Shown: piece by piece, positions 28,814 to 44,327 of the stretch
Layout of the letters: every line of letters begins with the position of its first letter
Numbering within the stretch: the stretch's first letter is position 1
DNA from: Betaproteobacteria bacterium
GTDB taxonomy: Bacteria > Pseudomonadota > Gammaproteobacteria > Burkholderiales > Burkholderiaceae_E
Reading direction: 5' to 3'
Assembly: GCA_018970865.1 (NCBI GenBank)
Contig: JAGWVN010000001.1
Span: 1-64,000 of the forward strand
Length of the DNA: 64,000 nt
Notes under the pieces: model-generated
Told to the model about the DNA's origin: nothing
Seen by the model: only the letters and a program-made list of their open reading frames with translations
Databases searched by the model: none
Program-made: the position numbers and the translations under genes

Positions 28814-29548
28814 TCAGCCGAGCTCGGCGGGCATCAGCATCAGCATCCGGACGATCTCGGCCTGCCGGCTCACGCCGAGCTTGGACGAGATGGTGCGCAG
28901 ATGCGTGCGCACGGTGTTGGTGGACACGCCGAGCATCACGGCAATGTCGGCAGGCGACTCGCCCTCGGCCAGCAGGCCCGCCACCTTCGCCTCGGCCCGG
29001 GACAGCCCGAAGAACTCCACCAGCATCGCGGGGTTGATGTTCAGCGCCGCCTGCGCGTCATTGAGCACCAGAACCGCATGGCGCACCCGCGCCGACACCG
29101 CCTCGCCGCTGGCGGGATCGACCCGACAGCAGTCGACGATCAGCGGGAGCGGGGATTCCTGACGATTGAGGCGAAGACGCCGCTGACGGGGCAGGGAGGG
29201 ATCCGATCCGGTCTTGTCGAGCCAGTGAAGAATCCCTGAAAAGCTCGCCTGGTCGGCGGTGTTTCGCCAGCGGATCTGGCCGTTCAGCAGCGTCATCGAT
29301 CGCTGCCCATCCATCCAGCGGGCCAGCGCCCGATTGCCCGACAGCAGCCGCGCCTCGCTGTCGATCACCATGGCGGGCTGCGCGATCAGCGCCACCAGCT
29401 CATGAAGCCCCGGCAGAAGGGCGGGAGCGGCGCCGACGGACCAGGCCGGGAGGCGCTCGGCCACGGAGTTCCAGTGACGATCGGGTGCCCGCCCCGGCAA
29501 TTCGCTCTCGATGAAGCCAGCGGCCAGTGCCTGCAGGGAATCGGTCAT
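28814..29548 (-). CDS. LuxR-type transcriptional regulator
   Basis: 244 residues. The C-terminal HTH (LSRAEAKVAGLLAEGESPADIAVMLGVSTNTVRTHLRTISSKLGV) is a clear LuxR/GerE domain. The N-terminal 170 residues look PAS-like (MVIDSEARLLSGNRALARWMDG), a likely ligand or redox sensor, and no receiver aspartate is present. It is divergent from the response regulator/kinase operon across a 257-base gap with repeats, so it may control that operon. Confidence 0.88.
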   Translation of the reverse strand: MTDSLQALAAGFIESELPGRAPDRHWNSVAERLPAWSVGAAPALLPGLHELVALIAQPAMVIDSEARLLSGNRALARWMDGQRSMTLLNGQIRWRNTADQASFSGILHWLDKTGSDPSLPRQRRLRLNRQESPLPLIVDCCRVDPASGEAVSARVRHAVLVLNDAQAALNINPAMLVEFFGLSRAEAKVAGLLAEGESPADIAVMLGVSTNTVRTHLRTISSKLGVSRQAEIVRMLMLMPAELG

Positions 29549-29805: not shown

Positions 29806-30456
29806 TTGAAATTCCTGCTCATCGACGACCACGACCTGTTTCGCAGCGGCCTGCGCCTGCTGCTCGGTCAGTTGCCCGTCGACATCGAGGTTCTGGAGGC
29901 CGGCTGCGTCGAGGACGCGCTGGCGCATGTCGATCACGGCATCGGCATCGTGATGCTCGATCTGTCGATGCCGGGCACCAGCGGCATGGAGGCCCTCATC
30001 AGGGTCCGCGAGGCCTTCCCCGACACGCCCATCGTCATCGTCTCCAGTGATGACGATCCCGAACTGATCCGCCAGGCGATCGACCTCGGCGCCTCGGGCT
30101 TCGTGCCCAAGACATCCACCCCGCCACTGCTGATCAGCGCGCTGCAGCTGATCCTCGCCGGTGGCGTCTACCTGCCCAGGGCGGTGCTCAGCCCCGCGCC
30201 GCCAGGCACCACGCCGCGTGGCGCCGATCCATCGATCGGCGCCACCGCAACCCCCTCGGGGCTCACCGATCGCCAGGAGGAGGTGCTGCTCAAGGCGGTG
30301 CTCGGTCAGTCGAACAAGGCGATCGCCCGGGCCATGGATCTCTCCGAAGGCACCGTCAAGGCGCATCTCTCGGCTGCCTTCCGGGTTCTGGGCGTGCGCA
30401 ATCGCACCGAGGCGGTCTACGCGGCGGCGGCGCGAGGCATCGGACAGAAGCGCTGA
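29806..30456 (+). CDS. NarL/FixJ-type response regulator
   Basis: 216 residues. The receiver domain (1-120) has the acidic pair in LLIDDHD, the phospho-acceptor aspartate in VMLDLSMPGTSG, and the conserved lysine in FVPKTS. A Pro/Ala linker leads to a C-terminal LuxR HTH (LTDRQEEVLLKAVLGQSNKAIARAMDLSEGTVKAHLSAAFRVLGV). The start is TTG 29806 with GGAG upstream. The hybrid kinase begins three bases after its stop, so they form a cognate pair. Confidence 0.93.
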   Translation: MKFLLIDDHDLFRSGLRLLLGQLPVDIEVLEAGCVEDALAHVDHGIGIVMLDLSMPGTSGMEALIRVREAFPDTPIVIVSSDDDPELIRQAIDLGASGFVPKTSTPPLLISALQLILAGGVYLPRAVLSPAPPGTTPRGADPSIGATATPSGLTDRQEEVLLKAVLGQSNKAIARAMDLSEGTVKAHLSAAFRVLGVRNRTEAVYAAAARGIGQKR

Positions 30457-30459
30457 AGC

Positions 30460-32226
30460 ATGCGCACGCGCGGCGAACCCGGCGCCAGCGACGCGCTCGA
30501 TGTCGATGACACGCTCCTGCAGGCCTTCGTCCGGGAACGCTCCATCGCCACCTGGCTGCGCCAGATTCCGTCTTCAATGGCAGGCCAGCTCTTTGCAGGC
30601 CTGCTGCTCGGCGCCATCTGGTGGGTCAACACCCGCAGCATCTGGCCGCTGGCGTGGGCAGGCACGCTGGTCGCCGCGCTGCTGCTGAGGCTTGTCTACA
30701 CCGAGCGCATCGTGCGGATGCCGGGGCGCGTGCCCACCGAAACCCGCATTAGCGCCCTCATGGTCAGCCAGGGCGCGCTGATCACGCTGCCGCTGCTGGG
30801 GTTCAGCCGGTTCCCCGCCGTGGAGCAGGCGGCCGTGTCGATCATCCTGGTGGCGCTCGCCACGGCATCGGTGGCCACCACCGCCGGCTTCCGCCTGGTG
30901 TTCCTGTACTACGCGGTGCCCATCCTGATGCCCCTCGCGCTTGCCTGGGCCCTGGCAGCCAGCGAGGCAGCGTCGCCCCACGCGGGGCTCGGCATGGCGG
31001 CGCTGGTGCTGGTCTACCAGACCTATCTCATCGGGCTGTCGCGCCAGATCGGCCGCGTGGTGCAGGAGGCCGCCCGTTTCCGCTACAGCCAGGAGCGCAT
31101 GAACCAGGCCCTGAAGCAGGCGCTCGATACCGCCGAATCCTCCAGCCGCGCCAAGACGCAGTTCCTGGCGGCCGCAAGCCACGATCTGCGCCAGCCCATG
31201 CACAGCATGAATGTCCTGGTGGCCGCCCTGTCGCTGAAGACCCTCGACAAGAGCGTGCGCGAGATCGTCAACATGCTCGATGCCGTCAACCAGTCGATGA
31301 CGCGGCAGCTCGACAGCCTGCTCGACATCTCGAAGCTCGACGCCGGCATCGTGGTCCCCCGGCTCAAGACCTGCCAGCTCGATGCCATGCTCAGGAACCT
31401 CGTGCTGTCGGCCAGCGCGGTGGCCGGCGAGCGCGGCCTCTCCTGCCACCTGAGCATCGGGCAGCCGCTCGCGGTGCGCAGCGACGAGTCGCTGCTCGGG
31501 CGCGTGCTCAGCAACCTCACCGACAACGCCATCAAGTTCACGCCGCGGGGCGGCGCGATCACGATCAGCCTGCAGCGAGAGGGCGACACCGCGCTCATCG
31601 AGATCCGCGATTCCGGGATCGGCATTCCGCCCGAGCTTCAGAGCCGGGTGTTCGAGGAGTTCTACCAGATCGGCAACCCGCAGCGCGATCGCACCCGCGG
31701 ACTGGGGCTTGGCCTGTCGATCGTCAAGCGCCTGTGCGATCTCCTCGGCGCCAGCCTGACCCTGCAGTCGCGGGTCGGCGAAGGCACGCGCTTCGAGATC
31801 CGGCTTCCCCTCGCCCTCACGCCCGAGACCGAGCCAGCCCAGCCGCCTGTCGCGGTGCCAGCGGCAACGGCCCGGATCGTGCTGGTGATCGATGACGAGC
31901 TCGCTGTCCGCCAGAGCATGCGGGTGCTGCTGGAAGAACTCGGCTGCACCGTCCTCGACGCCGCGGGCACGAACGAGGCCACCCGGGTGGCCGCCGAGCA
32001 TCCGATCGATCTCATCCTGTCCGACATGCGTCTGGCCGACGGCGACAGCGGCATCGAGGCCATCCGACAGGTGCGCGCCCGCCGGCCCGGCGCGCGCGCC
32101 GTCCTGATCACCGGCGACACCGCGCCCGAGCGGCTGCGCGAAGCGCAGGCCAGCGGCCTGATCCTGCTGCACAAGCCGGTGAGCCTGGAAAGCCTCACCG
32201 GCGTTCTCGATGCCAGCACCGACTGA
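30460..32226 (+). CDS. hybrid sensor histidine kinase with C-terminal receiver
   Basis: 588 residues. About six membrane helices (residues 40-200) carry no obvious periplasmic sensor, so it may sense from within the membrane. A short coiled segment precedes the H-box (AASHDLRQPMHSM). The N-box (DNAIKFTPRG), G1 (DSGIGIP) and G2 (GLGLGLSIVKRL) follow. A receiver domain at about 470-588 has its acceptor aspartate in LSDMRLADG and lysine in LHKPVS. The last 17 bases overlap the start of the giant enzyme gene, so sensing and enzyme production are coupled. Confidence 0.94.
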   Translation: MRTRGEPGASDALDVDDTLLQAFVRERSIATWLRQIPSSMAGQLFAGLLLGAIWWVNTRSIWPLAWAGTLVAALLLRLVYTERIVRMPGRVPTETRISALMVSQGALITLPLLGFSRFPAVEQAAVSIILVALATASVATTAGFRLVFLYYAVPILMPLALAWALAASEAASPHAGLGMAALVLVYQTYLIGLSRQIGRVVQEAARFRYSQERMNQALKQALDTAESSSRAKTQFLAAASHDLRQPMHSMNVLVAALSLKTLDKSVREIVNMLDAVNQSMTRQLDSLLDISKLDAGIVVPRLKTCQLDAMLRNLVLSASAVAGERGLSCHLSIGQPLAVRSDESLLGRVLSNLTDNAIKFTPRGGAITISLQREGDTALIEIRDSGIGIPPELQSRVFEEFYQIGNPQRDRTRGLGLGLSIVKRLCDLLGASLTLQSRVGEGTRFEIRLPLALTPETEPAQPPVAVPAATARIVLVIDDELAVRQSMRVLLEELGCTVLDAAGTNEATRVAAEHPIDLILSDMRLADGDSGIEAIRQVRARRPGARAVLITGDTAPERLREAQASGLILLHKPVSLESLTGVLDASTD

Positions 32227-35200
32227 CCGACGATCGCGGCGCGCCTCCCGCCGCCTGGCGAGTCTGGTCCGCGGCGTCGAAGACGAACTGCTCTTCGATG
32301 TGGTGATCGTCGGCAGCGGCTACGGCGGCAGCATGGCCGCCGCCGAGCTCGCCAATGCCGTCGTCGATGGCGAGAAGCCTGGAGGGTCGCGGCGGCTCTC
32401 GGTCTGCCTGCTCGAACGCGGCGAGGAATATCTGCCGGGCGAGTTTCCGGCCGATGTGGGCGAACTGCCCCGCCATGTGCGGGTGAGCGATCAGGCCAGC
32501 GGCGCGGTGCGGGGCTTCCACCAGGGCCTGTTCGACCTTCGCCTCGGACCGGATGTCGCCGCGCTGGTGGCCAACGGCCTGGGCGGCGGCTCGCTGATCA
32601 ACGCGGGCGTCATGCTCGAGCCGAGAGCCGAAGACTTCGAGCCAGGCAGCGTCATGGGCGCTCTGCTCGAATCACTGCACGCCAGCTCTGACACAGGACG
32701 GAGCTTCTTCGCCGAGGCCGGCCTCAGGCTGGGAAGCCGGGAAAACCACGCCGAGGGCAACACCATCCGGCGGCACAAGCGGTTCCGCTCGGGCGACCAC
32801 CCCCAGGGGCCGCTGCCGGCCAAGACCGCCGCGCTCCAGACCCTGGCGGGCAGTCGCACGCCCGAACTCGCGCCGATCACGGTATCGATGACCGGGGGCG
32901 GCAATCATGCCGGCGTCGCGCTCGATGCCTGCACCCTGTGCGGCGACTGCCTCACCGGCTGCAATGTCGGCGCCAAGGACTCGCTCGACGCCAATCTGCT
33001 GGAAATCGCCAGCCGGGGCGGCGTGGAGATCGTCACGGGCGCCACCGTGCTGTCCATCCGGCGCGCCCGACCGTCGGAAATCAGGCAGGACAGGCCGCCA
33101 CGCTGGGTGCTGCGGGTGGCGCACACCGATCCGCGCCTTCAGGACCGGGAAGCCACCCACTTCAGGATCGGCGCCCGCAGGCTCATCCTGAGCGCCGGCA
33201 CGCTCGGCACCACCGAGATCCTGCTGCGCTCGCGCGACGAGCGGCTGGTCTTCTCGCCGCGGCTGGGCGAGCGCTTCTCCTGCAATGGCGACAACATCGC
33301 CGCGGTTCACCGGATGCCGCAGACGGTCAACGCGCGGGCCATGCCCGACACGCGGGTGACCGAGGGCAGTCGCGCAGTCGGCCCCACCATCACCGCCTCG
33401 ATTCCCGTCCGCCGTGGCGATCCGGCGCTCGAGACAGGCTGTCACGCGCCGGGCGCCCGAGGGTTTCTCATCCAGGAGTTCGCGGTCCCCGCGGCGCTGC
33501 GGCAGTTCTTCGACGAACTCGTCACCACGCGCCATGTGCTCGAGCAGTTGCCGAACAAGGATGACGAATTCCATGGCACCCGGCGCGCCGAGGCCAGCGA
33601 TCCGATGGCCGTGGATGCAAGCGCCATGGAACGCACCCTGCTGGTGGGCGTGATCGGCCACGACGACGCCGCAGGCTCCCTCCACCTGAGCAACCCGAGC
33701 CGGCCGCGCGATCGCGTGCCGCAGCAGGGCGGGCTGTTGATCCGATGGCCGAACGCGCGGCACGGCGCCGACCTGAACAACTCGCATGCCGTGCTCCACG
33801 ATCTCGTCGGCCACCTGCCAACCGGCGACCCGACCCAACCGCCCAGCCTGGTCGCCAACCCCATGTGGCGGCTCATCCCCGACAAGCTTGCCGAGCTGGT
33901 TGCGCAGCCCCGAGGGCCGGTGCTCACGGTGCATCCGCTGGGCGGCTGCGCGATCGGGCGCAGCATCGAAGACGGCGTGGTGGACGAATACGGCTGCGTG
34001 TTCAATGGCCTGCGCACCAGTCCCGATGCCGCCCCCGATGACGACTGGCAGGGCAGCCTGGTGATCCTCGACGGGTCGATCATCCCGGGCTCGCTCGGGG
34101 TGAATCCCTCGCTGACCATCGCAGCCACCGCGCTGCGGGCCATGGCGCACCATCGGCGGGCCTGGGGGGTCCGCACCGGCGACGCCGTCGGCACCCGGTG
34201 GGCAGCCGCCGGGCAGGCCGGCTCGCCCGAAACGACCCTGCCTCGCCGCCGCGTGCCGCTGCCGCCCACGCCGCCAGCCGCGCCCACCGAGATCGAGATC
34301 ACGGAGCGCCTGCGGGGCACGGTGCTGCTTCACGCCGGGGTGTCGTGTCCCTCGCCGTTCATGGTCGATCTGACGCTGCGCTACCGACGGGCAGACCTGA
34401 CCGCGCTCAGCACCCGAGCAGTGCGTGAACTCGAGCTTGACCCGGAACGGTCGCGACTGCGGCTCTTCCGCCAGGCCGACTGGGATCGGCTGGCGCTGCG
34501 ATTCCAGCCCGAGTGGATGCAGCAGCGGCACGCCGTGCTGGAGGCCAGCCTGCGCGGCAGCCTGCGGTTCCTTCACCGCGAGCCTTCGTCGGCCTGGCGG
34601 CGACAGTGGCGGGGCCTGTGTGCCTGGGGGGTGAACCGCGGCGCACGCGACAGCCTGCAGTACCTGCTCAAGCGACTGGGTGGCCGACAGCCTGCCACCG
34701 GCAACTTCCTGCGGGATCTGCTTCGCACCGCCTCGCGCGCCGGCGAGGTCCGCCGCTTCGATTACGCGCTCCAGGTCGAGGCGGTGCTCACCCCCGCCGA
34801 TCGCATCACACTGCCCTGTCCGGCGTTCATGCCGGGCGACGCCATTCAGGGGCACAAGCGCCTGACCTACGGCAAGCGGGCAAATCCCTGGCGGCAACTC
34901 GGCGAACTCACGCTCACCGCCATGCCGCACATGCAGGCCGGCCAGCGGCCGGTGCTCGGTCTCGACCTGCGCTTCATGGCCGCGCAGGGCATTCCGCTCG
35001 TGCAGATCGTGTCGCAGCAGGATCAGGTCCGTGCCCTTGGCGATCTGGCGTCGTTCGGCCTGTACATGGCCCGGGTGATCGTCAACAACCATCTCTGGAC
35101 TTTCCGCAAGCCCGATGAGCCCGATGCGCAGTCCCGCGTCGAACCGCAGCGACTGCCCGGCCCGATCGCCGGCCTGGCCAACCCCGAGATCACCGAACTC

Positions 35201-38155
35201 AAGGTGGGGCTGATCCCCGGAACCACCGACCCGGTGATCGTGCGCCTCACCCATTACCGCGCGGTCCGGTCGGCCGATTCACGCCCCGGCGCGCTGCCGC
35301 CACTGGTCATGCTTCACGGCTACAGCGCCAGCGGCACCACCTTCACGCACGACACGCTGGCGCCAAGCGCCGCCGCGCATTTCTGCCGAGCCGGCCGCGA
35401 TGTCTGGGTGGTCGATCTGCGTACCAGCACCGGCATGCGCACGGCAACCCTGCCCTGGGCGCTCGAAGAGCCCGCGCTGGTGGACATCCCGGCGGCGCTG
35501 CTCCACATCCGCACCGTGACCGGCCAGCGCGTGGATGTGCTGGCGCACTGCGTGGGCGCCGCCATGCTGAGCATGGCCCTGCTCACCGACGCCCGGGACA
35601 TCCGCAGCAGCGAGGTGCAGCTCGGCATCGACACCTGGATCACCGACGAGCAGCTCGGCACCCTGACCGCCTTCAACGGCCCGCGTCCCTCGGGCGACAG
35701 CCATCCCTGCATCCGCCGGATCGTGCTCAGCCAGAAGGGCCCGGTGCTGCGCTATCCCGACGACAATGTCTTCCGCACCTTCCTGCTGCGCCGAATCCGC
35801 CGACTGGTGCTGCCCGCGGACTACCGGTTCCGCAGCGACGCCAACCCCGGCGTGGCTGCCCAGCTGCTCGACCGCCTGCTGTCGAGCCTGCCGTACCCGG
35901 ATCGCGAGTACGACGCCGAGAACCCGTTCCCGCGGTTCTGGAAGACCACGCCCTGGACGGCGGTGCGGCACCGCATGGATCTGCTGTACGGCCGCACCTT
36001 CTCGGCAGCCAATCTGAGCGATGCCACGCTGAACCGCCTCGATGACCTGTTCGGGCCGATGAACATCGACACGCTCGCGCAGATCATCCACTTCGCGCGC
36101 TTTGACGCCATCACCAATCAGCGCGGCCGCGGCGAGTTCGTCACCCGCCGAAAGCTGCGCGACCGGTGGGGCGGCATCCCGACACTGGCCATCCACGGCC
36201 AGGAGAACGGCCTGGTGGATGTGGCCACGCAGGATCTTCTGAGCAAGGCCATGGGCTTTGCGGGCGTGCCCTTCCGGACCTCGCCCTCGGATCAGCCCCC
36301 CTATCAGGCGCTTGGCCACCAGGATGTCCTCATCGGCCGTCAATCGGTGGCCGTGTTCGAGGACATCGAGGCGTTCCTGGGCGAGGCGTCAGCCGACGCG
36401 CCGGCGCGCCGCGTCAGCGCCACCCCATCCGAAAAGCCCGCGCGGCCAGCGCAATACCGGTTCATGCCGCCCTGGATCGGCCCGAGAATCGATCTCCCCG
36501 ATGACCCCCGCGCCGGCCGGCTCACCATTGCGGCCCTGTCGAACCCCGACCAGGGACACGCGCGTCTGGCGCTGATCCCCGTGCACCGCCGGGTCGAGCA
36601 GGGCGTCAGCCGTTTTCTGCCGGCCAGTGACCGGATCGCCCTGAGCGCAGCGCAGAGCAGCAGCCGCTGGCTCAGGGCCGAGCCGCTCGAGTTTCCGCCT
36701 GCGGAGGCGCCCGCCTCCGACGCCATCGCCGGCCATCTCGCGCTGATCGTCCATGAAGTTGACACCCTCTCGGAACCCGACGGGGACGCCGCGGCGGGCG
36801 AACCGAAGGTCGGGATGGTGGCAGGCCCAACCCGGGTCAACCCCGGAACGCCGGAGGCGACTGCCCTGGCCAAGGCGCTGGCGGAATGGCTGCGCACCGC
36901 AGACCCGGGCAGGCTGGCCGAGGCCTTCCTTCGCCAGGACGAACTCGACCGCGCCTGGCGGCTGCACACCGGCAACGAGCCCGGCGCGCTGCGCGTTGCC
37001 TTCGGCAGCTGCCAGTACCCGCCGGGGCTGTTCGACCGGCCCGTGGCCGAGGGCAGTCTGCGCCGGCTCGCCGAATCGCTCGGCCCTGCCGACAGTCCCG
37101 ACCCGGTGCGTTCCCCCGGTCCCGACCTGGTGCTGCTTCTGGGCGACCAGATCTATGCCGACGCCACCGGCGGCTTCGCGGATGCCACCCGCATCGATGA
37201 ACGCGTCGAGCAGCCCCATGACGACGCCCTGCGGGTGAGCCCGCTGCGCGAGCTGATGCGACGCCGGCCCGTGCGCACCCTGATCGACGATCACGAGCTC
37301 ATCGACAACTGGGAGCCGATGCCCGAGGCGGTGGCGCTGCGCCGCCCCGACGAGGCGCGGCGTCGGCAGCAGACGCAGGAGGCCGGGCGCGAGGCCTTCC
37401 TGCGCTATCAGCGGATGCGCCCGGCCGTCGATGATCCGGCCAGCGGTCGGCGCCGACGGGACATCCTTGCCCGACCCGTCGACCAGCACTTCGCGTTCGC
37501 CGGACACGCCTTCTATCTGCTGGACACCCGTACCGGGCGGTCGGCGCGGGGTTCGTCGACCGCGCCGCAGGAGCGCCTGATCATCGACGAGCGCCAGTGG
37601 TACGGGCTGCGCGACTGGCTGCTGGCCAGACCCCGGGCGCTGAAGTTCGTCGCCACCGCCTCGGCCCTGCTGGCCCGGCGCCGGCACATCGCCGACCACC
37701 CCGAGGACACCGGCAGCAGTGATGCCTGGGACGGCTTTCCCGAGTCGCTGCGCTGGCTGATCGAATTCCTCTATTTCAACCGCATCTCGAACACCGTGTT
37801 CCTGAGCGGCGACGAGCATCACAGCTTCCACGCCGAGGCCCGGGTCACTTCCCCCGATGACGACCACATCCTGAAGATCGTCTCCATCCACAGTTCGGCG
37901 CTCTATGCGCCCTTCCCCTTCGCCAATGGCCGCCCGCTGGATTTCCTGCCGAGCGACGCCGGCCCTGGCGGCGGGGTCGAGTGCTACCGCGTGGGGAACC
38001 TGCATCTCGAGGTGACCATGCGGTTCGCCCCCCCGGGAGACGGCTATGCCGTGCTCGAAGTGCCCTCGGCCGCGCAGCGGACCAACGACATCACCCTGCA
38101 CTACCTCAAGCGCAACCCACCCGATGCCCGCCCGATCGTCCTGTCGCTCGACTGA
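32210..38155 (+). CDS. giant fusion: GMC oxidoreductase + alpha/beta hydrolase + PhoD-like phosphatase
   Basis: 1981 residues, no signal peptide. Residues 25-650 form a GMC flavoprotein of the cholesterol-oxidase-like type: FAD loop VGSGYGGS (34-41), NGLGGGSLINAG (about 123-134), a C-x2-C-x2-C-x3-C motif at C241-C251, and the C-terminal VHPLGGC and GSLGVNPSLTIAATALRAM motifs. Residues 690-1010 are a linking domain without clear family. Residues 1020-1390 are an alpha/beta hydrolase (MLHGYSASG) whose elbow is AHCVGAA with C1114, and H1370 is a candidate catalytic histidine. Residues 1590-1981 are PhoD/metallophosphatase-like: FGSCQ, LLGDQIYAD, DDHELIDN and SGDEHHS. It likely acts on a sterol- or lipid-like alcohol ester, which is inference. 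Confidence 0.9.
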   Translation: MPAPTDRRSRRASRRLASLVRGVEDELLFDVVIVGSGYGGSMAAAELANAVVDGEKPGGSRRLSVCLLERGEEYLPGEFPADVGELPRHVRVSDQASGAVRGFHQGLFDLRLGPDVAALVANGLGGGSLINAGVMLEPRAEDFEPGSVMGALLESLHASSDTGRSFFAEAGLRLGSRENHAEGNTIRRHKRFRSGDHPQGPLPAKTAALQTLAGSRTPELAPITVSMTGGGNHAGVALDACTLCGDCLTGCNVGAKDSLDANLLEIASRGGVEIVTGATVLSIRRARPSEIRQDRPPRWVLRVAHTDPRLQDREATHFRIGARRLILSAGTLGTTEILLRSRDERLVFSPRLGERFSCNGDNIAAVHRMPQTVNARAMPDTRVTEGSRAVGPTITASIPVRRGDPALETGCHAPGARGFLIQEFAVPAALRQFFDELVTTRHVLEQLPNKDDEFHGTRRAEASDPMAVDASAMERTLLVGVIGHDDAAGSLHLSNPSRPRDRVPQQGGLLIRWPNARHGADLNNSHAVLHDLVGHLPTGDPTQPPSLVANPMWRLIPDKLAELVAQPRGPVLTVHPLGGCAIGRSIEDGVVDEYGCVFNGLRTSPDAAPDDDWQGSLVILDGSIIPGSLGVNPSLTIAATALRAMAHHRRAWGVRTGDAVGTRWAAAGQAGSPETTLPRRRVPLPPTPPAAPTEIEITERLRGTVLLHAGVSCPSPFMVDLTLRYRRADLTALSTRAVRELELDPERSRLRLFRQADWDRLALRFQPEWMQQRHAVLEASLRGSLRFLHREPSSAWRRQWRGLCAWGVNRGARDSLQYLLKRLGGRQPATGNFLRDLLRTASRAGEVRRFDYALQVEAVLTPADRITLPCPAFMPGDAIQGHKRLTYGKRANPWRQLGELTLTAMPHMQAGQRPVLGLDLRFMAAQGIPLVQIVSQQDQVRALGDLASFGLYMARVIVNNHLWTFRKPDEPDAQSRVEPQRLPGPIAGLANPEITELKVGLIPGTTDPVIVRLTHYRAVRSADSRPGALPPLVMLHGYSASGTTFTHDTLAPSAAAHFCRAGRDVWVVDLRTSTGMRTATLPWALEEPALVDIPAALLHIRTVTGQRVDVLAHCVGAAMLSMALLTDARDIRSSEVQLGIDTWITDEQLGTLTAFNGPRPSGDSHPCIRRIVLSQKGPVLRYPDDNVFRTFLLRRIRRLVLPADYRFRSDANPGVAAQLLDRLLSSLPYPDREYDAENPFPRFWKTTPWTAVRHRMDLLYGRTFSAANLSDATLNRLDDLFGPMNIDTLAQIIHFARFDAITNQRGRGEFVTRRKLRDRWGGIPTLAIHGQENGLVDVATQDLLSKAMGFAGVPFRTSPSDQPPYQALGHQDVLIGRQSVAVFEDIEAFLGEASADAPARRVSATPSEKPARPAQYRFMPPWIGPRIDLPDDPRAGRLTIAALSNPDQGHARLALIPVHRRVEQGVSRFLPASDRIALSAAQSSSRWLRAEPLEFPPAEAPASDAIAGHLALIVHEVDTLSEPDGDAAAGEPKVGMVAGPTRVNPGTPEATALAKALAEWLRTADPGRLAEAFLRQDELDRAWRLHTGNEPGALRVAFGSCQYPPGLFDRPVAEGSLRRLAESLGPADSPDPVRSPGPDLVLLLGDQIYADATGGFADATRIDERVEQPHDDALRVSPLRELMRRRPVRTLIDDHELIDNWEPMPEAVALRRPDEARRRQQTQEAGREAFLRYQRMRPAVDDPASGRRRRDILARPVDQHFAFAGHAFYLLDTRTGRSARGSSTAPQERLIIDERQWYGLRDWLLARPRALKFVATASALLARRRHIADHPEDTGSSDAWDGFPESLRWLIEFLYFNRISNTVFLSGDEHHSFHAEARVTSPDDDHILKIVSIHSSALYAPFPFANGRPLDFLPSDAGPGGGVECYRVGNLHLEVTMRFAPPGDGYAVLEVPSAAQRTNDITLHYLKRNPPDARPIVLSLD

Positions 38156-38663: not shown

Positions 38664-38831
38664 CGCAGTCCGGGGCGGGTCCGCGACATCCGCCCCCCGA
38701 TCCGCCGCAGCCGGATCGGGCACTGCCCCGACCCGCCCGGATCGACCACTGCTCAGGTCGGGAGCACCGGCGGAGATGGCAGCGCCCGTGTGCCCGCGCG
38801 AGGGGAATGCCTGCGTGCGATCATCCCCGCC

Positions 38832-40343
38832 ATGAGCGCGGCGCGCCCCACCGAGAGCCTGAACACCGCCCTGACCGCCTCCCTGGTCTCGCGGATCTGG
38901 GTTGCGGCCATCGCGGTGCTGTCGGTGCCGGTCTACCTGCGGTTCATGGGCATCGAGGCCATCGGCGTGGTGGGCGTGTTCACCAGCCTCTCGGCCCTGG
39001 TGGGCGTGCTCGACCTCGGCATGGGCGCCACGCTCACCCGCGAGCTGGCCCGCCTGTCCGGGGAGCCGGCGCAGCTTCCCCAGGCGCGCGACACCACCCG
39101 CACCCTCGAGATCGCGTACGCCGGCATCGCGCTGCTGATCGCGCTGCTGCTGATCGCGCTGTCGGGGCAGATCGCGCGGCACTGGGTGCAGGCGGCATCG
39201 CTCTCGGTGGAGAGTGTCGGGCGCGCGATCGCGCTCTCCGGCGTGGCACTGGCCGGCCAGTGGCCCGGCAACCTCTACGCCTCCGGTCTGGCGGGCCTGC
39301 ACCGCCAGAGCGCCCTTGGCGCGATGACCGCGTTCATGGCCACGCTGCGGGTGGCCATCACGGTGCTGGCCCTGTGGCGCGAACCCTCGATCGAGCAGTT
39401 CTTCCTGGCGCAGGTGATCGCCGGGCTGCTGCACACCATCGGCCTGCGCTGGCTGCTGTGGCGCGCGCTGGCCCTGCCCGGGCGTCGGCCCCGCTGGGAT
39501 CCGGCCATGGTGAGCGGCAGCCTGCGCTTTGCCGGCGGCATGACCGGCATCACGCTCACCAGCCTGCTGATCACCCAGACCGACAAGCTGATCCTGAGCC
39601 GGGCGCTCAGCCTGAGCGAGTTCGGCGTGTACTCGCTGGCCACAGCGGTCACCAGCGGGCTTTACATGCTCATCAGCCCGGTGTTCTCGGTGCTGTATCC
39701 GCGACTCACCGCCCTGGTCCACGCCGGCGATGAGCGCGCCCTGGCAGAGCTCTACCTCACCGGCAGTCAGGCCATGGCCTTGCTGGTGCTGCCGGTGGCC
39801 GCAGTGATCGCCTGCTTCTCGACCGATGTGCTGCTCGCCTGGACCGGCGATGCGGCCCTCAGCCGCAGCGGCGCCTGGGTGCTGACCCTGCTGGTGGTGG
39901 GCAACGCCGGCAATGGCCTCATGAACCTGCCCTTCGCGCTGCAGCTGGCCAACGGGTGGACGCGGCTCGCCCTGTGGGTGAACATTGTGTCGCTGCCGCT
40001 GCTGGTGCCCGCAATCTGGTTGGCCGCCACGCAGTACGGCGCGGTGGGCGGCGCCGCGGTCTGGGCTGGGTTCAGCCTGTGCCTGGTGGTGGCCATCCCG
40101 CAGATCATGCATCGCCACCTGCTGCCGGGCAGCCGCAACGCCTGGTACCGCACTGGCGTCGCGCTGCCGGTGGCGGTGTGCGGCGGGCTGATGACGGTCG
40201 CGGCCCTGCTGCACGATGCCACGGCGTCGCGCGCGGGCCTGGCCCTGCAGCTGGCTCTCTGGTGGGCGCTGGCCAGCCTGGCCACCGCCCTGTGTCTGCC
40301 CCGCCTGCGGGCGCGCTTGCGGGTCTACATCGGAAGACAGTGA
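38832..40343 (+). CDS. Wzx-like polysaccharide flippase (MATE/MOP superfamily)
   Basis: 503 residues with about twelve to fourteen membrane helices. VGVLDLGMGATLTRELARLSG and SLLITQTDKLILSRALSLSEFGVYSLA are the characteristic segments of O-unit or capsule flippases. It moves lipid-linked glycan across the inner membrane. ATG 38832 is preferred over an in-frame ATG at 38790 because the hydrophobic part follows directly. The stop overlaps the methyltransferase ATG, starting the glycan operon. Confidence 0.9.
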   Translation: MSAARPTESLNTALTASLVSRIWVAAIAVLSVPVYLRFMGIEAIGVVGVFTSLSALVGVLDLGMGATLTRELARLSGEPAQLPQARDTTRTLEIAYAGIALLIALLLIALSGQIARHWVQAASLSVESVGRAIALSGVALAGQWPGNLYASGLAGLHRQSALGAMTAFMATLRVAITVLALWREPSIEQFFLAQVIAGLLHTIGLRWLLWRALALPGRRPRWDPAMVSGSLRFAGGMTGITLTSLLITQTDKLILSRALSLSEFGVYSLATAVTSGLYMLISPVFSVLYPRLTALVHAGDERALAELYLTGSQAMALLVLPVAAVIACFSTDVLLAWTGDAALSRSGAWVLTLLVVGNAGNGLMNLPFALQLANGWTRLALWVNIVSLPLLVPAIWLAATQYGAVGGAAVWAGFSLCLVVAIPQIMHRHLLPGSRNAWYRTGVALPVAVCGGLMTVAALLHDATASRAGLALQLALWWALASLATALCLPRLRARLRVYIGRQ

Positions 40344-41053
40344 TGCTCGAGGTTCTCAGGAACACCCAGGAGATTCGACTGGCCCGCGCGCGGCTGCGCG
40401 AAACGGCCCGCAGCGGGATCGACGGCCCGCTCAGGCGCTGGCTCAAACGCCGCGGCCTTGCCCGCGGTCCGCTGGTGGGCGACGACCTCAAGAGCTGGGA
40501 TGTCGAGCGCTCGCTCGCCTTCATCGCCGAGCGCCTGCCGAAGGATGCGCCCATCCTCGATCTTGGCGCCTATGGCTCGGAAGTACCGGTGTCGCTCGCG
40601 CGCATGGGCTACTCGGCGGTCCATGGCGTCGATCTGAATCCGGCCGTGCGCGACATGCCGATGGCCGACCGGGTGCGCTACGCGGTGGGCGACTTCATGC
40701 GCACGCCCTACGCCGACCGCAGTTTCGACGCCGTGACCGCCACCTCGGTGATCGAGCACGGCTACGATGCGCCGCGACTGTTCGCCGAGATGGCCCGGCT
40801 GCTGCGCCCGGGCGGCTTCTTCATCGCCTCGTTCGACTACTGGCCCGAGAAGATCGACACCGGCGACACCCGCTTCTTCGACCTCTCGTGGCTGATCTTC
40901 TCCTGGACCGAGGTGCAGACCCTGCTGCAGACCGCGGCCGGCCATGGGCTGGTGCCGGCCGGACCCCTGGCGCACGCCGCGCAGGATCGCCCCATCCAGT
41001 GCGCCGGCTTCGACTACACCTTCGGCTGGCTGGTGCTGCAGCGGGAGGGCTGA
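40343..41053 (+). CDS. class I SAM methyltransferase of the glycan cluster
   Basis: 236 residues. APILDLGAYGSEVPVSLARMGY and VHGVDLNP are SAM-binding motifs I and II, and SVIEHGYDAPRLFAEMARLLRPGGFFIAS is the Methyltransf_11 post-motif region. It probably methylates a sugar or caps the glycan. The TGATG junctions on both sides place it in one translationally coupled operon with the flippase and glycosyltransferase. Confidence 0.88.
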   Translation: MLEVLRNTQEIRLARARLRETARSGIDGPLRRWLKRRGLARGPLVGDDLKSWDVERSLAFIAERLPKDAPILDLGAYGSEVPVSLARMGYSAVHGVDLNPAVRDMPMADRVRYAVGDFMRTPYADRSFDAVTATSVIEHGYDAPRLFAEMARLLRPGGFFIASFDYWPEKIDTGDTRFFDLSWLIFSWTEVQTLLQTAAGHGLVPAGPLAHAAQDRPIQCAGFDYTFGWLVLQREG

Positions 41054-42144
41054 TGCGGGTGCTCCTGATCGCCGGCAGCTATCCCCCGGACCGCTGCGGC
41101 GTGGGCGACTACACCAGCCAGCTGGCGCGCGCGCTCGCCGGTCAGCCCGGCACCGAGGTGGCCGTGCTGGCGCGCGGCGCGCCTGAAGGGGCCGACACGC
41201 CGGGGCTGACCATCCTGCCGCCGGTGCGGTCCTGGCTGTTCGAGGAGCTGCCTGCCATCCTGCAGCGGGTGCGGCAGTGGCGCCCGGATGTGGCGCATGT
41301 CCAGTACCCCACCCAGGGCTTCTTCGGCACGAGCCTGCCCCGGCTGCTGCCCCTGGCGCTGCGGCTGACCGGCCTGCGGGTGGTGATCACCTGGCATGAA
41401 CCGCCACCACCGGGCGGCCGGGTGCTGCTGCATTTCCTGCAGCCGCTTCTGGGATCGAGCGGACTGATCTTCGTGCGGCCGAACTATCTCGACTACTTTG
41501 GTCCGGCACTGCGCCGGGTCGTGGAACGACTGCCGCGCGCGACGATTCCCAACGCAGCCAACCTCCCGGTCAGCCAGCTGGCCCCTGCGCAGCGCGCGGC
41601 CCTGCGCGAGCGCCTCTTGCAGGGGCAGTCACGGCTGGTGGTGTTCTTCGGCTTCATGGCCCGCCACAAGGGCGTGGAGCGGCTGTTCGAGATTGCCGAC
41701 CCGGCAACCGACCGGCTGGTGATCGCCGGCGCCAGCACCGACGACGACTACCTGGGCGAACTGCAGGCCCTGGCAGACGCGCCGGGCTGGCGCGGCAAGG
41801 TGGACTTCGCCGGATTCTCGCCCCCTGACCAGGCTGCCGACCTGCTGGCCGCGGCCGACGCGGTGGTGCTGCCCTTCATCACCGGGGGCGGCAACTGGAA
41901 CACCTCGATCCACAGCGCACTCGCTCAGGGCAGCTTCGTGCTGACCACCGGCGAGCCGGCCAGCGGCGACGATCCGGTCCGCAACCTGTATGTGGCCTCC
42001 CCCGACGGGCTGAGCGAGATGCGCGAGGCTCTGCGCGTGCATGCCGGCCGACGCGTGGCCCCGGCGCGCGGACCATCACCCTGGGAGGCGATCGCCCAGG
42101 CCCACCTCACCCACTACGCCCGCTGCCTGGGCCGAAGGGTCTGA
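41053..42144 (+). CDS. glycosyltransferase family 4-like (GT-B)
   Basis: 363 residues. The N-terminal MRVLLIAGSYPPDRCGVGDYTSQLARAL is typical of GT4 enzymes, and the C-terminal half (VVFFGFMARHKGVERLFEIAD, ADAVVLPFITGGGNWNTSIHSALAQG) holds the nucleotide-sugar-binding acidic loop region. It acts on the cytosolic face of the membrane. Substrate unknown. Four bases separate its stop from the next start. Confidence 0.9.
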   Translation: MRVLLIAGSYPPDRCGVGDYTSQLARALAGQPGTEVAVLARGAPEGADTPGLTILPPVRSWLFEELPAILQRVRQWRPDVAHVQYPTQGFFGTSLPRLLPLALRLTGLRVVITWHEPPPPGGRVLLHFLQPLLGSSGLIFVRPNYLDYFGPALRRVVERLPRATIPNAANLPVSQLAPAQRAALRERLLQGQSRLVVFFGFMARHKGVERLFEIADPATDRLVIAGASTDDDYLGELQALADAPGWRGKVDFAGFSPPDQAADLLAAADAVVLPFITGGGNWNTSIHSALAQGSFVLTTGEPASGDDPVRNLYVASPDGLSEMREALRVHAGRRVAPARGPSPWEAIAQAHLTHYARCLGRRV

Positions 42145-42147
42145 GCC

Positions 42148-43236
42148 ATGAACGAGCCCATCCGACTTTCCTTCTGCATCCCGGTCTACAACTTCGGAGC
42201 CTTCGTCACCCAGACCCTCGACTCGATCGCGGCGAGCCTGGCCACCCATCCCGGCCTCGAGGCGGTGGTGCTTGACGGCGGCTCAACCGACGACACCCCG
42301 CAGATCATGGCCGACTACTGCGCCCGTCATCCCGCCGTGCGCTATGTCCGCCAGGACCAGCGCGGCGGAATCGATGCCGACATGGCCCGCAGCGTCGCGC
42401 TGGCACGCGGCGAGTATTGCTGGCTGCTCAGCGGCGATGACCTCGTGCGGCCAGGCGCGATCGACGAGCTCCTCGGCATGCTTCCGGAGGGTCACGATGT
42501 CTACCTCTGCGAGCACACGCAATGCGACATCGCCATGAACTACCTGGGAGACCACCGCATCTTCCAGCGCCAGGACGGCTTCAGCGTCAATCTCGGCAAT
42601 CCGGCAGAGCGGATTCGCTATCTGGCCGGGGCACGCAACAGCGAGGCGATGTTCAGCTTCATGAGCGGGCTGATCGTCCGGCGCGAGCAGTGGATGTCGG
42701 CCCCGGAGCCGGTGGCATTCATGCGCAGCTGCTGGGGACATGTGGCCCGGCTCCTGTCCAGCGCCAACCCCGATCTGCGGGTGCGCGTGGTGGGCAGGCA
42801 GTGGATCGACCGGCGCGGCGACAACGACTCCTTCCGTGAGAACGGCATCGTCCGCCGGCTGGCCATCGCGGTGGACGGCTACCAGCAGCTGGCCACCCAC
42901 TTCTACGGCGCCGACTCGGCCGAGTCGGCGCAGATTCGCCGCCTGATCCGCAACGAGCTCTCCGTGCGCACGTTCCTGCAGGTGCGTGTGCTGTGCAGCC
43001 GGAACCCGGCGCAGGAGGACCGCGCGATGCTGGATCGGCTGATGCGCACGCTCTATGGCGACCCGCGACTCGACTGCCGGCTGGCCAGGCTGATCTACTT
43101 CATGATGGTGCCCGATGCCCTGATCGAGCAGGCAGCGATCGTCGCCCGGTTCGGCCGACGGATCCTTGCGCGACTCAACGGACGGCATCATGGTGGCTCC
43201 GTGGCGAGCCGCGGCGGCGCAGACCGCGCTCCGTGA
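42148..43236 (+). CDS. glycosyltransferase family 2 (abequosyltransferase-like)
   Basis: 362 residues, GT-A fold. SFCIPVYNFGAFVTQTLDSI opens it, VVLDGGSTDDTPQIM binds the nucleotide, RGGIDADMARSVALARGEYCWLLSGDDLVRPGAI holds the metal-binding DD. The C-terminus includes a long helical tail. The GGIDADM feature is shared with deoxyhexosyl-type transferases such as abequosyltransferase. It is paralogous to the next gene. Confidence 0.9.
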   Translation: MNEPIRLSFCIPVYNFGAFVTQTLDSIAASLATHPGLEAVVLDGGSTDDTPQIMADYCARHPAVRYVRQDQRGGIDADMARSVALARGEYCWLLSGDDLVRPGAIDELLGMLPEGHDVYLCEHTQCDIAMNYLGDHRIFQRQDGFSVNLGNPAERIRYLAGARNSEAMFSFMSGLIVRREQWMSAPEPVAFMRSCWGHVARLLSSANPDLRVRVVGRQWIDRRGDNDSFRENGIVRRLAIAVDGYQQLATHFYGADSAESAQIRRLIRNELSVRTFLQVRVLCSRNPAQEDRAMLDRLMRTLYGDPRLDCRLARLIYFMMVPDALIEQAAIVARFGRRILARLNGRHHGGSVASRGGADRAP

Positions 43237-44327
43237 GCGCGGCCAACCCAGCCGACACCCCCGTGCCCGACTGTCGGCTCTCGATCTGCATCACCACCCG
43301 CAACCGGCGCGCGGTGCTGGCGCAGACGCTGGCCAGCCTGCTCGCGCAGATGCCAGCCCAGGGCGTGGAAGTGGTGGTGGTCGACGGCCAGTCCGATGAC
43401 GACACGCCGCAGGCGATGCGCGCGCTGGCCGACCGGGATGCGCGGGTGCGATTCTTCCGCGAGACCGTGAACGGCGGCATCGACCGCGACTACGACAAGA
43501 CAGTGATCTACGCCCGCGGCCATCACTGCTGGCTGATGTCCGACGACGATCTCTTCCTGCCCGGCGCGATCGATCGGGTGCTGTCGGCGCTGGTCGATGA
43601 TCCCTGCCTGGTGGTGGTCGACGCCGAGGTCCGCAACGCGCATCTGACGCGCGTGGTCCAGACGAGCCGGCTCGGGCTGAGCGCCGACACCGTGTTCGGC
43701 CCGACCGAGCACGAGGCGCTGTTCCTGGCCGCCGCCGATCACCTCTCGTTCATCGGCGGTACCGTGATCCGGCGCAGCCTCTGGCTGTCGCGCGAGCGCG
43801 AGGCCTACATCGGCAGCTTCTTCATCCATGTCGGGGTGATCTTCCAGGCGCCGTTGCCGGACAAGGCGGTGCTGCTCGCCGGCCCGCTGATCGCGATCCG
43901 TTACGGCGCGGCAAGCTGGTCGCCGCGCAGCTTCGAGATCTTCGGCGTGCGCTGGCCGGCGCTGCTCTGGTCGTTCGGCGGGCTGTCGGCGGCGGCGCGG
44001 GCCCGGGTGGTGCCCCGCGAGCCCTGCCAGTCGCTGCGCCAGCTGCTCGCGCTGCGCTCGACCGGCGCCTACACCCTGGCCGCGTACCGGCGCTGGCTGG
44101 CCGATGCGTCCGCGCCCGCCTGGCGCAAGGCGCTGCAGATTGCCATCGCGCTGACCCCAGGCGTGCTGCTCAACCCGCCGGCCATCGCCTGCCTGCTGCT
44201 GCTCTCGCGGCACCCGCAGCTGCACCTGATCGATCACCTGAACAGCCGCTACTGCCTGCTGCGCGGCCCCTGGCGCTGGTACGAGGCCGCGCGGGCGCGC
44301 CGGCTCAGCCCGCCCCCATCGCGCTGA
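43233..44327 (+). CDS. glycosyltransferase family 2, paralogue of the preceding gene
   Basis: 364 residues from GTG 43233, overlapping the upstream stop by four bases. SICITTRNRRAVLAQTLASL, VVVVDGQSDDDTPQAM, GGIDRDYDKTVIYARGHHCWLMSDDDLFLPGAI match the preceding transferase motif by motif, which suggests tandem duplication with later divergence. Its 3' end overlaps the convergent gene at 44305 by 23 bases. Confidence 0.9.
   Translation: MSAANPADTPVPDCRLSICITTRNRRAVLAQTLASLLAQMPAQGVEVVVVDGQSDDDTPQAMRALADRDARVRFFRETVNGGIDRDYDKTVIYARGHHCWLMSDDDLFLPGAIDRVLSALVDDPCLVVVDAEVRNAHLTRVVQTSRLGLSADTVFGPTEHEALFLAAADHLSFIGGTVIRRSLWLSREREAYIGSFFIHVGVIFQAPLPDKAVLLAGPLIAIRYGAASWSPRSFEIFGVRWPALLWSFGGLSAAARARVVPREPCQSLRQLLALRSTGAYTLAAYRRWLADASAPAWRKALQIAIALTPGVLLNPPAIACLLLLSRHPQLHLIDHLNSRYCLLRGPWRWYEAARARRLSPPPSR

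Follow-up and report, generated by a model that had tools for sequence, protein, structure and literature searches.

A conserved three-enzyme protein joining a GMC flavoenzyme, an acid-lipase-fold hydrolase and a PhoD-like phosphoesterase is usually encoded beside its own sensor kinase

Among the GMC flavoenzymes, the glucose dehydrogenase of B. cepacia (BcGDH; PDB 6a2u) binds a [3Fe-4S] cluster by means of Cys212, Cys218 and Cys222 (PMC6719666). BcGDH and the fructose dehydrogenase of Gluconobacter (8jej) are periplasmic and are accompanied by a cytochrome and a small subunit known as the "hitchhiker". The cholesterol oxidase ChoA from Streptomyces (1b4v, 1mxt) is a single-enzyme protein. The PhoD family of phosphoesterases includes a phospholipase D and is otherwise extracytoplasmic and Ca2+-requiring (PMC4223295); for the PhoD enzymes of Ramlibacter and B. 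subtilis, ten active-site residues have been listed (PMC5768637). Proteins of the Leptospira WP_002741297.1 type (approximately 1150 residues, annotated as "alpha/beta fold hydrolase") combine a GMC module and an alpha/beta-hydrolase. The window analysed here, a stretch of 64,000 nucleotides from a Betaproteobacteria bacterium, codes for a protein in which all three kinds of enzyme are joined. It belongs to a real and widespread protein family, which is built from known enzyme kinds and is apparently undescribed: neither the fusion nor its domain combinations were found in the open-licence papers searched, in agreement with the first-pass annotation, which knew of no role for the version with PhoD.

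The ORF at positions 32210–38155 (plus strand) starts with ATG and is uninterrupted over 1981 residues. The modules follow each other in the order GMC, unknown domain, alpha/beta-hydrolase, PhoD. The first-pass annotation had postulated three catalytic modules in one polypeptide, and the domain search bears this out: PF00732, PF05199 and PF09423 scored above their cut-offs, and the hydrolase, which was missed by Pfam, was matched by means of a family profile and an AF2 model. The observation made there is confirmed, and its interpretation is partly supported; the channelled pathway suggested there, in which the hydrolase would free an alcohol, the GMC domain would oxidise it and the phosphoesterase would remove a phosphate, is a putative scheme. 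The gene is present once in the 3.9-Mb genome of the window. A chimeric ORF resulting from a frameshift or an assembly error, which had been named as a possible objection, is ruled out by the orthologues. The protein of the sister species has the same length and module order and is 73% identical over its full length, the same order and length are seen at 46 loci including those of isolate genomes, and the flanking genes are syntenic. No point in favour of a chimera was found, and its probability is negligible.

The full-length architecture is present in many genera at approximately 28–73% identity to the protein of the window. Comparison with the sister species yielded dN/dS values of 0.30 for the GMC module, 0.32 for the linker, 0.27 for the hydrolase and 0.35 for the whole PhoD region, with 0.19 for the PhoD core; every module is under purifying selection. 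The genes flanking the fusion are more alike between the two species (regulator 88%, kinase 86%, several others 90–98% identity). The fusion therefore evolves faster than its surroundings, yet is constrained. Inspection by eye and hydropathy revealed no signal peptide, either on the fusion or on the PhoD proteins encoded by separate genes, and neither a hydrophobic nor a twin-arginine leader on the fusion, which makes a cytoplasmic location likely.

The GMC module comprises residues 29–660 (32294–34189, plus strand) and contains the FAD motif GSGYGG. It passed the Pfam models GMC_oxred_N (31.9 bits, cut-off 23) and GMC_oxred_C (31.2 bits, cut-off 24.6). Of the Rossmann motif, G35 and G37 are kept in 79 of 80 rows of the alignment and G40 in 73 of 80. 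The equivalents of Glu361, His447 and Asn485 of cholesterol oxidase are all retained: position 423, which was placed by motif, is Glu or Asp in 80 of 80 rows, and H575 and N632 are each found in 79. In sequence the module is closest to cholesterol oxidase (E 4e-39), with ChoA as its best match. A structure comparison of the model ranked the Fe-S fructose dehydrogenase at the top (Z 35), with cholesterol oxidase near behind (Z 33 at 24% identity), and the cholesterol-oxidase equivalog NF058674 (NCBIfam) gave 121.5 bits at a cut-off of 850.

What separates the module from ChoA is a CxxCxxCxxxC motif (C241, C244, C247, C251; 32930–32962, plus strand), at the position of which ChoA has no cysteines. 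The four residues are kept in 80, 78, 80 and 80 of the 80 loci, and the motif is also kept in the two-enzyme and stand-alone GMC relatives. The BcGDH segment CCGNNNCMPICPIGA aligns with CTLCGDCLTGCNVGA of the window: the C-x5-C-x3-C spacing, the loop and the following GA (xxGA, also in fructose dehydrogenase) are the same, and the window protein adds a fourth Cys, C244. An Fe-S cluster bound by the GMC module is the best reading of this conservation and spacing, and the motif is accordingly listed as a predicted site. Cysteines at the place and in the spacing of the BcGDH ligands argue that the module is probably an Fe-S GMC dehydrogenase and not a plain oxidase; of the "GMC oxidase" originally proposed, the family assignment stands and the oxidase part does not. 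Genes for a hitchhiker subunit and a cytochrome, as they accompany BcGDH and fructose dehydrogenase, do not form a recurring neighbour cluster at the fusion loci, where the recurring neighbours scanned were regulators.

Residues 690–1010 (34277–35239, plus strand) had been taken for a linker. It is more than a mere linker: two independent AF2 models predict a confidently folded domain with confidence values mostly above 90. Pfam gave only single scattered matches among the family members, none of them consistent; two of these were to unrelated viral proteins and were taken as chance. The best matches in the PDB, to Photorhabdus lectins (E 1e-4 to 5e-3), comprised short stretches, did not cover the predicted domain, and were not used. 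A profile self-comparison detected no internal repeat. The structural searches with both AF2 models were filled by GMC and hydrolase folds and barely probed the fold of this domain.

The alpha/beta-hydrolase (residues 1011–1425; 35240–36484, plus strand) lies below the sensitivity of Pfam in the single sequence of the window. A profile of 68 relatives matched gastric lipase (E 2e-10) and lysosomal acid lipase (E 8.5e-7) in the PDB. For the AF2 model of residues 662–1432 (mean pLDDT 90.6), the top structural alignment was that with lysosomal acid lipase (336 residues, Z 31.5, rmsd 3.3), with agreement in fold and cap arrangement; gastric lipases followed with Z values of about 30 and all others with about 24 or less. 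The local sequence near the nucleophile also resembles that of these lipases, which differ from the window hydrolase in that the latter is fused and without signal peptide and has a Cys in place of Ser and an Asn at the Asp position. Instead of the Ser of a GxSxG motif, the nucleophile position (AHCxG; C1114) holds Cys in all 78 rows with a residue there, and His1370 is invariant in the same 78 rows. At the usual acid position (HGxxN; N1333), Asn apparently replaces Asp in 76 of 80 rows. The nucleophile Cys is likewise present in the two-enzyme and separate-gene relatives. Among the next-best structural matches are PHA synthases, which use a Cys nucleophile on an alpha/beta-hydrolase fold. The Cys/Asn site could mean acyl transfer instead of hydrolysis.

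The PhoD core (residues 1590–1950; 36977–38059, plus strand) is preceded by a poorly conserved stretch (residues 1426–1589; 36485–36976, plus strand), which is roughly where the break lies in species that encode PhoD as a gene of its own. The module passed the Pfam model PhoD (74 bits, cut-off 27), its profile matched B. subtilis PhoD (2yeq) with E 7e-18, and the equivalog NF058638 (NCBIfam) gave 18.6 bits at a cut-off of 1000. Nine of the ten residues of the Fe/Ca active-site list (C, D, Y, D, D, H, N, N/D, D, H) are kept, namely C1601, D1646, Y1649, D1693, D1694, H1695, N1700, D1868 and H1870; the exception is the first of the two Asn, replaced by Asp in 37 of 47 rows. The module shares the metal-site residues with B. 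subtilis PhoD and the phospholipase D of S. chromofuscus, and differs from them by its C-terminal place in a fusion, its divergent N-terminal part and the missing signal peptide.

From 84,980 species genomes, the best 80 loci were collected by similarity to the full fusion; the selection profile contains PhoD, and the set therefore over-represents PhoD-linked forms. Wherever a lineage is named, these loci belong to Pseudomonadota, among them Burkholderiales, Rhizobiales, Rhodobacterales, Cellvibrionales, Arenicella, Granulosicoccus and others. The whole fusion is found at 46 of the 80 loci, a GMC-hydrolase gene next to a PhoD gene at 29, and five loci are cut by contig ends. The link with PhoD is strong: at all 75 loci uncut by a contig end, as selected with the PhoD-containing profile, PhoD is either fused or encoded directly downstream on the same strand. 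Where the genes are split, they overlap or lie close together; in many cases the PhoD gene starts within the stop of the preceding gene (ATGA or similar). At one split locus (L089) the GMC-hydrolase portion is in turn divided into two pieces. In a phylogeny of the shared region, the fused or split state requires seven changes, six of which are forced by well supported branches. In a sample of 299 evenly drawn Pseudomonadota genomes, the PhoD-linked form occurred only in the window's own genome and in one other. Ensifer megaplasmids carry it too, one copy being annotated merely as "alpha/beta fold hydrolase" (WP_205239617.1).

Two-enzyme GMC-hydrolase proteins without PhoD are present in Leptospira and Variovorax, and in two genomes from the window's order. 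Those of the Leptospira type have the Cys cluster and the HCxG motif, and their middle region is shorter. One two-enzyme gene is followed by a gene for a RoxA-like cytochrome c (L124:11209–13140), a possible electron acceptor there. Separate-gene relatives of the GMC and hydrolase modules occur at two loci beside a patatin phospholipase gene, in the run alpha/beta-hydrolase (HCxG), acetoacetate-decarboxylase-like, patatin, GMC (CxxCxxCxxxC) (L117:6844–12114 and L118:3318–10237). On an Acinetobacter contig, genes for a related GMC protein (25% identical) and a lipase lie beside two Baeyer-Villiger-type monooxygenase genes and SDR-type genes. These separate-gene contexts point to lipid or ketone chemistry. 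In a phage collection, only distant GMC matches were found, in probable host contigs; the monooxygenase, lipase and choD genes on CAKLQF020000036.1, a contig filed as an Acinetobacter phage, are of the kind usual on a host chromosome, and the contig is probably host DNA.

The coupling of the fusion to a two-component pair, noted in the first-pass annotation, is confirmed. The operon begins with a NarL/LuxR-type response regulator (29806–30456, plus strand; TTG start; Response_reg 73.9 bits, GerE 57.5 bits). It is followed by a hybrid sensor histidine kinase (30460–32226, plus strand) with approximately five TM segments and HisKA, HATPase and REC domains, whose core comes closest to the NahK/ErcS group at a score below the cut-off of that model. 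The kinase stop overlaps the fusion start by 17 nt, such that the three genes overlap or nearly touch. Kinases were counted at the 74 of 80 loci with enough upstream sequence. A kinase of the same cluster lies directly upstream on the same strand at at least 48 of these and adjacent on either side at at least 52; ORF ends were taken from stop to stop, and the counts are therefore lower bounds. A LuxR-type regulator is located within 3 kb at 38 of the 80 loci. At 13 alphaproteobacterial loci (L022:3570–7580 and at least 12 others), a mostly divergent gene for a 1340-residue guanylate-cyclase/AAA_16 protein takes the place of kinase and regulator; its guanylate-cyclase match is partial, being confined to the second half of the Pfam model.

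Architecture and operon arrangement are conserved, and the catalytic residues of the three modules are near-invariant. A lipase-fold acyl enzyme, a phosphoesterase related to phospholipase D and an alcohol dehydrogenase in combination would fit a hydrophobic molecule that carries both acyl and phosphate groups. We consider it about evenly balanced whether the protein processes a lipid-like (phospho)ester alcohol under the control of its own sensor kinase and regulator. The fusion would reside in the cytoplasm or at the inner face of the membrane and would be transcribed with the membrane sensor kinase and the response regulator. Its substrate would be hydrophobic and lipid-like and would contain a phosphodiester or phosphomonoester as well as an acyl (thio)ester or a comparable bond. 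The acyl group may be cleaved or transferred by the hydrolase with its Cys nucleophile, and the PhoD module may take off the head group or the phosphate. The alcohol thus freed may be oxidised by the GMC module with FAD, the electrons passing via a predicted Fe-S cluster to an acceptor. The sensor kinase, which spans the membrane with about five helices, would respond to the substrate, or to what it does to the membrane, and switch on the operon. Several points count against this explanation: catabolic gene families do not recur among the neighbour clusters of the fusion, where only regulators are conserved, and pathway context is therefore missing; no gene for an electron-transfer partner is conserved adjoining the fusion; the Cys/Asn pair of the hydrolase could signify acyl transfer; the 80 loci favour PhoD-linked forms, and relatives without PhoD exist; and the Ca2+ need and extracytoplasmic habit of the PhoD family fit poorly with the cytoplasm, where Ca2+ is scarce.

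A more specific version, which we put forward tentatively and deem rather unlikely to hold in full, is signal-controlled lipid processing. One membrane-derived molecule would be processed in sequence by an Fe-S flavin dehydrogenase, by an acid-lipase-fold enzyme with a Cys-His-Asn site that hydrolyses or transfers acyl groups, and by a PhoD domain resembling phospholipase D and located in the cytoplasm. The same molecule would be read by an intramembrane sensor kinase dedicated to it; in alphaproteobacteria, the cyclase-AAA protein would take this part. If true, this would be a new bacterial pathway of lipid remodelling or signalling. The family is of interest in any case, being widespread and annotated at present only as "alpha/beta fold hydrolase". 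Its fused and split forms tie together three enzyme activities that otherwise seem unrelated. The kinase partner offers a way of approaching the substrate, while the Cys cluster of the GMC module and the Cys/Asn site of the hydrolase are testable predictions on the enzyme chemistry.

The modules could alternatively serve the catabolism of sterol or steroid esters, with a cholesteryl-ester hydrolase and a cholesterol oxidase in one chain and PhoD removing a sterol phosphate. The proximity of the GMC module to cholesterol oxidase, including the three active-site positions kept in nearly all sequences, and that of the hydrolase to lysosomal acid lipase/cholesteryl ester hydrolase are consistent with such a role. 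It conflicts with the cholesterol-oxidase equivalog score far below its cut-off and with the neighbourhood clusters, in which steroid genes do not recur. A survey of the ring-degradation marker KshA_C, strong in only 4 of the 39 genomes carrying the protein and without a true match in the window's genome, gave little support; it weakens the steroid substrate guessed at originally and led us to reject sterol catabolism as the main role. As a general answer, a sterol pathway is unlikely.

In another alternative, oxidation would come first: the product of the GMC module would be a ketone or an aldehyde, and this activated compound would then be cut by the Cys hydrolase, much as in beta-diketone hydrolases or a Baeyer-Villiger route, with PhoD acting on a separate head group. 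The Acinetobacter gene cluster, with its two Baeyer-Villiger-type monooxygenases, suggests oxidation before hydrolysis there, and the acetoacetate-decarboxylase-like and patatin genes flanked by GMC and the same Cys-type hydrolase at the two separate-gene loci fit as well. No such monooxygenase is found among the conserved fusion neighbours, however, and the low identity of the Acinetobacter GMC protein is a further argument against this order, which is possible but rather improbable. Quite improbable is a joining for co-regulation or assembly only, i.e. modules needed simultaneously for different substrates without shared pathway flux. The repeated changes between fused and split states imply that physical fusion is not essential, and GMC-hydrolase proteins without PhoD exist; against this stand the invariable fusion or adjacency of PhoD at the uncut loci and the constraint on all modules.

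Two further features of the neighbourhood were seen in the window. A second LuxR-type regulator (28814–29548, minus strand) is divergent from the operon, has no Pfam receiver domain and is 67% identical in the sister species. Downstream of the fusion, on the same strand, a polysaccharide-type cluster (38790–44327) is syntenic in the sister species and codes for a flippase-like Polysacc_synt protein (38790–40343), a GT4-type glycosyltransferase (40216–42144) and two GT2 proteins (42148–43236 and 42993–44327).
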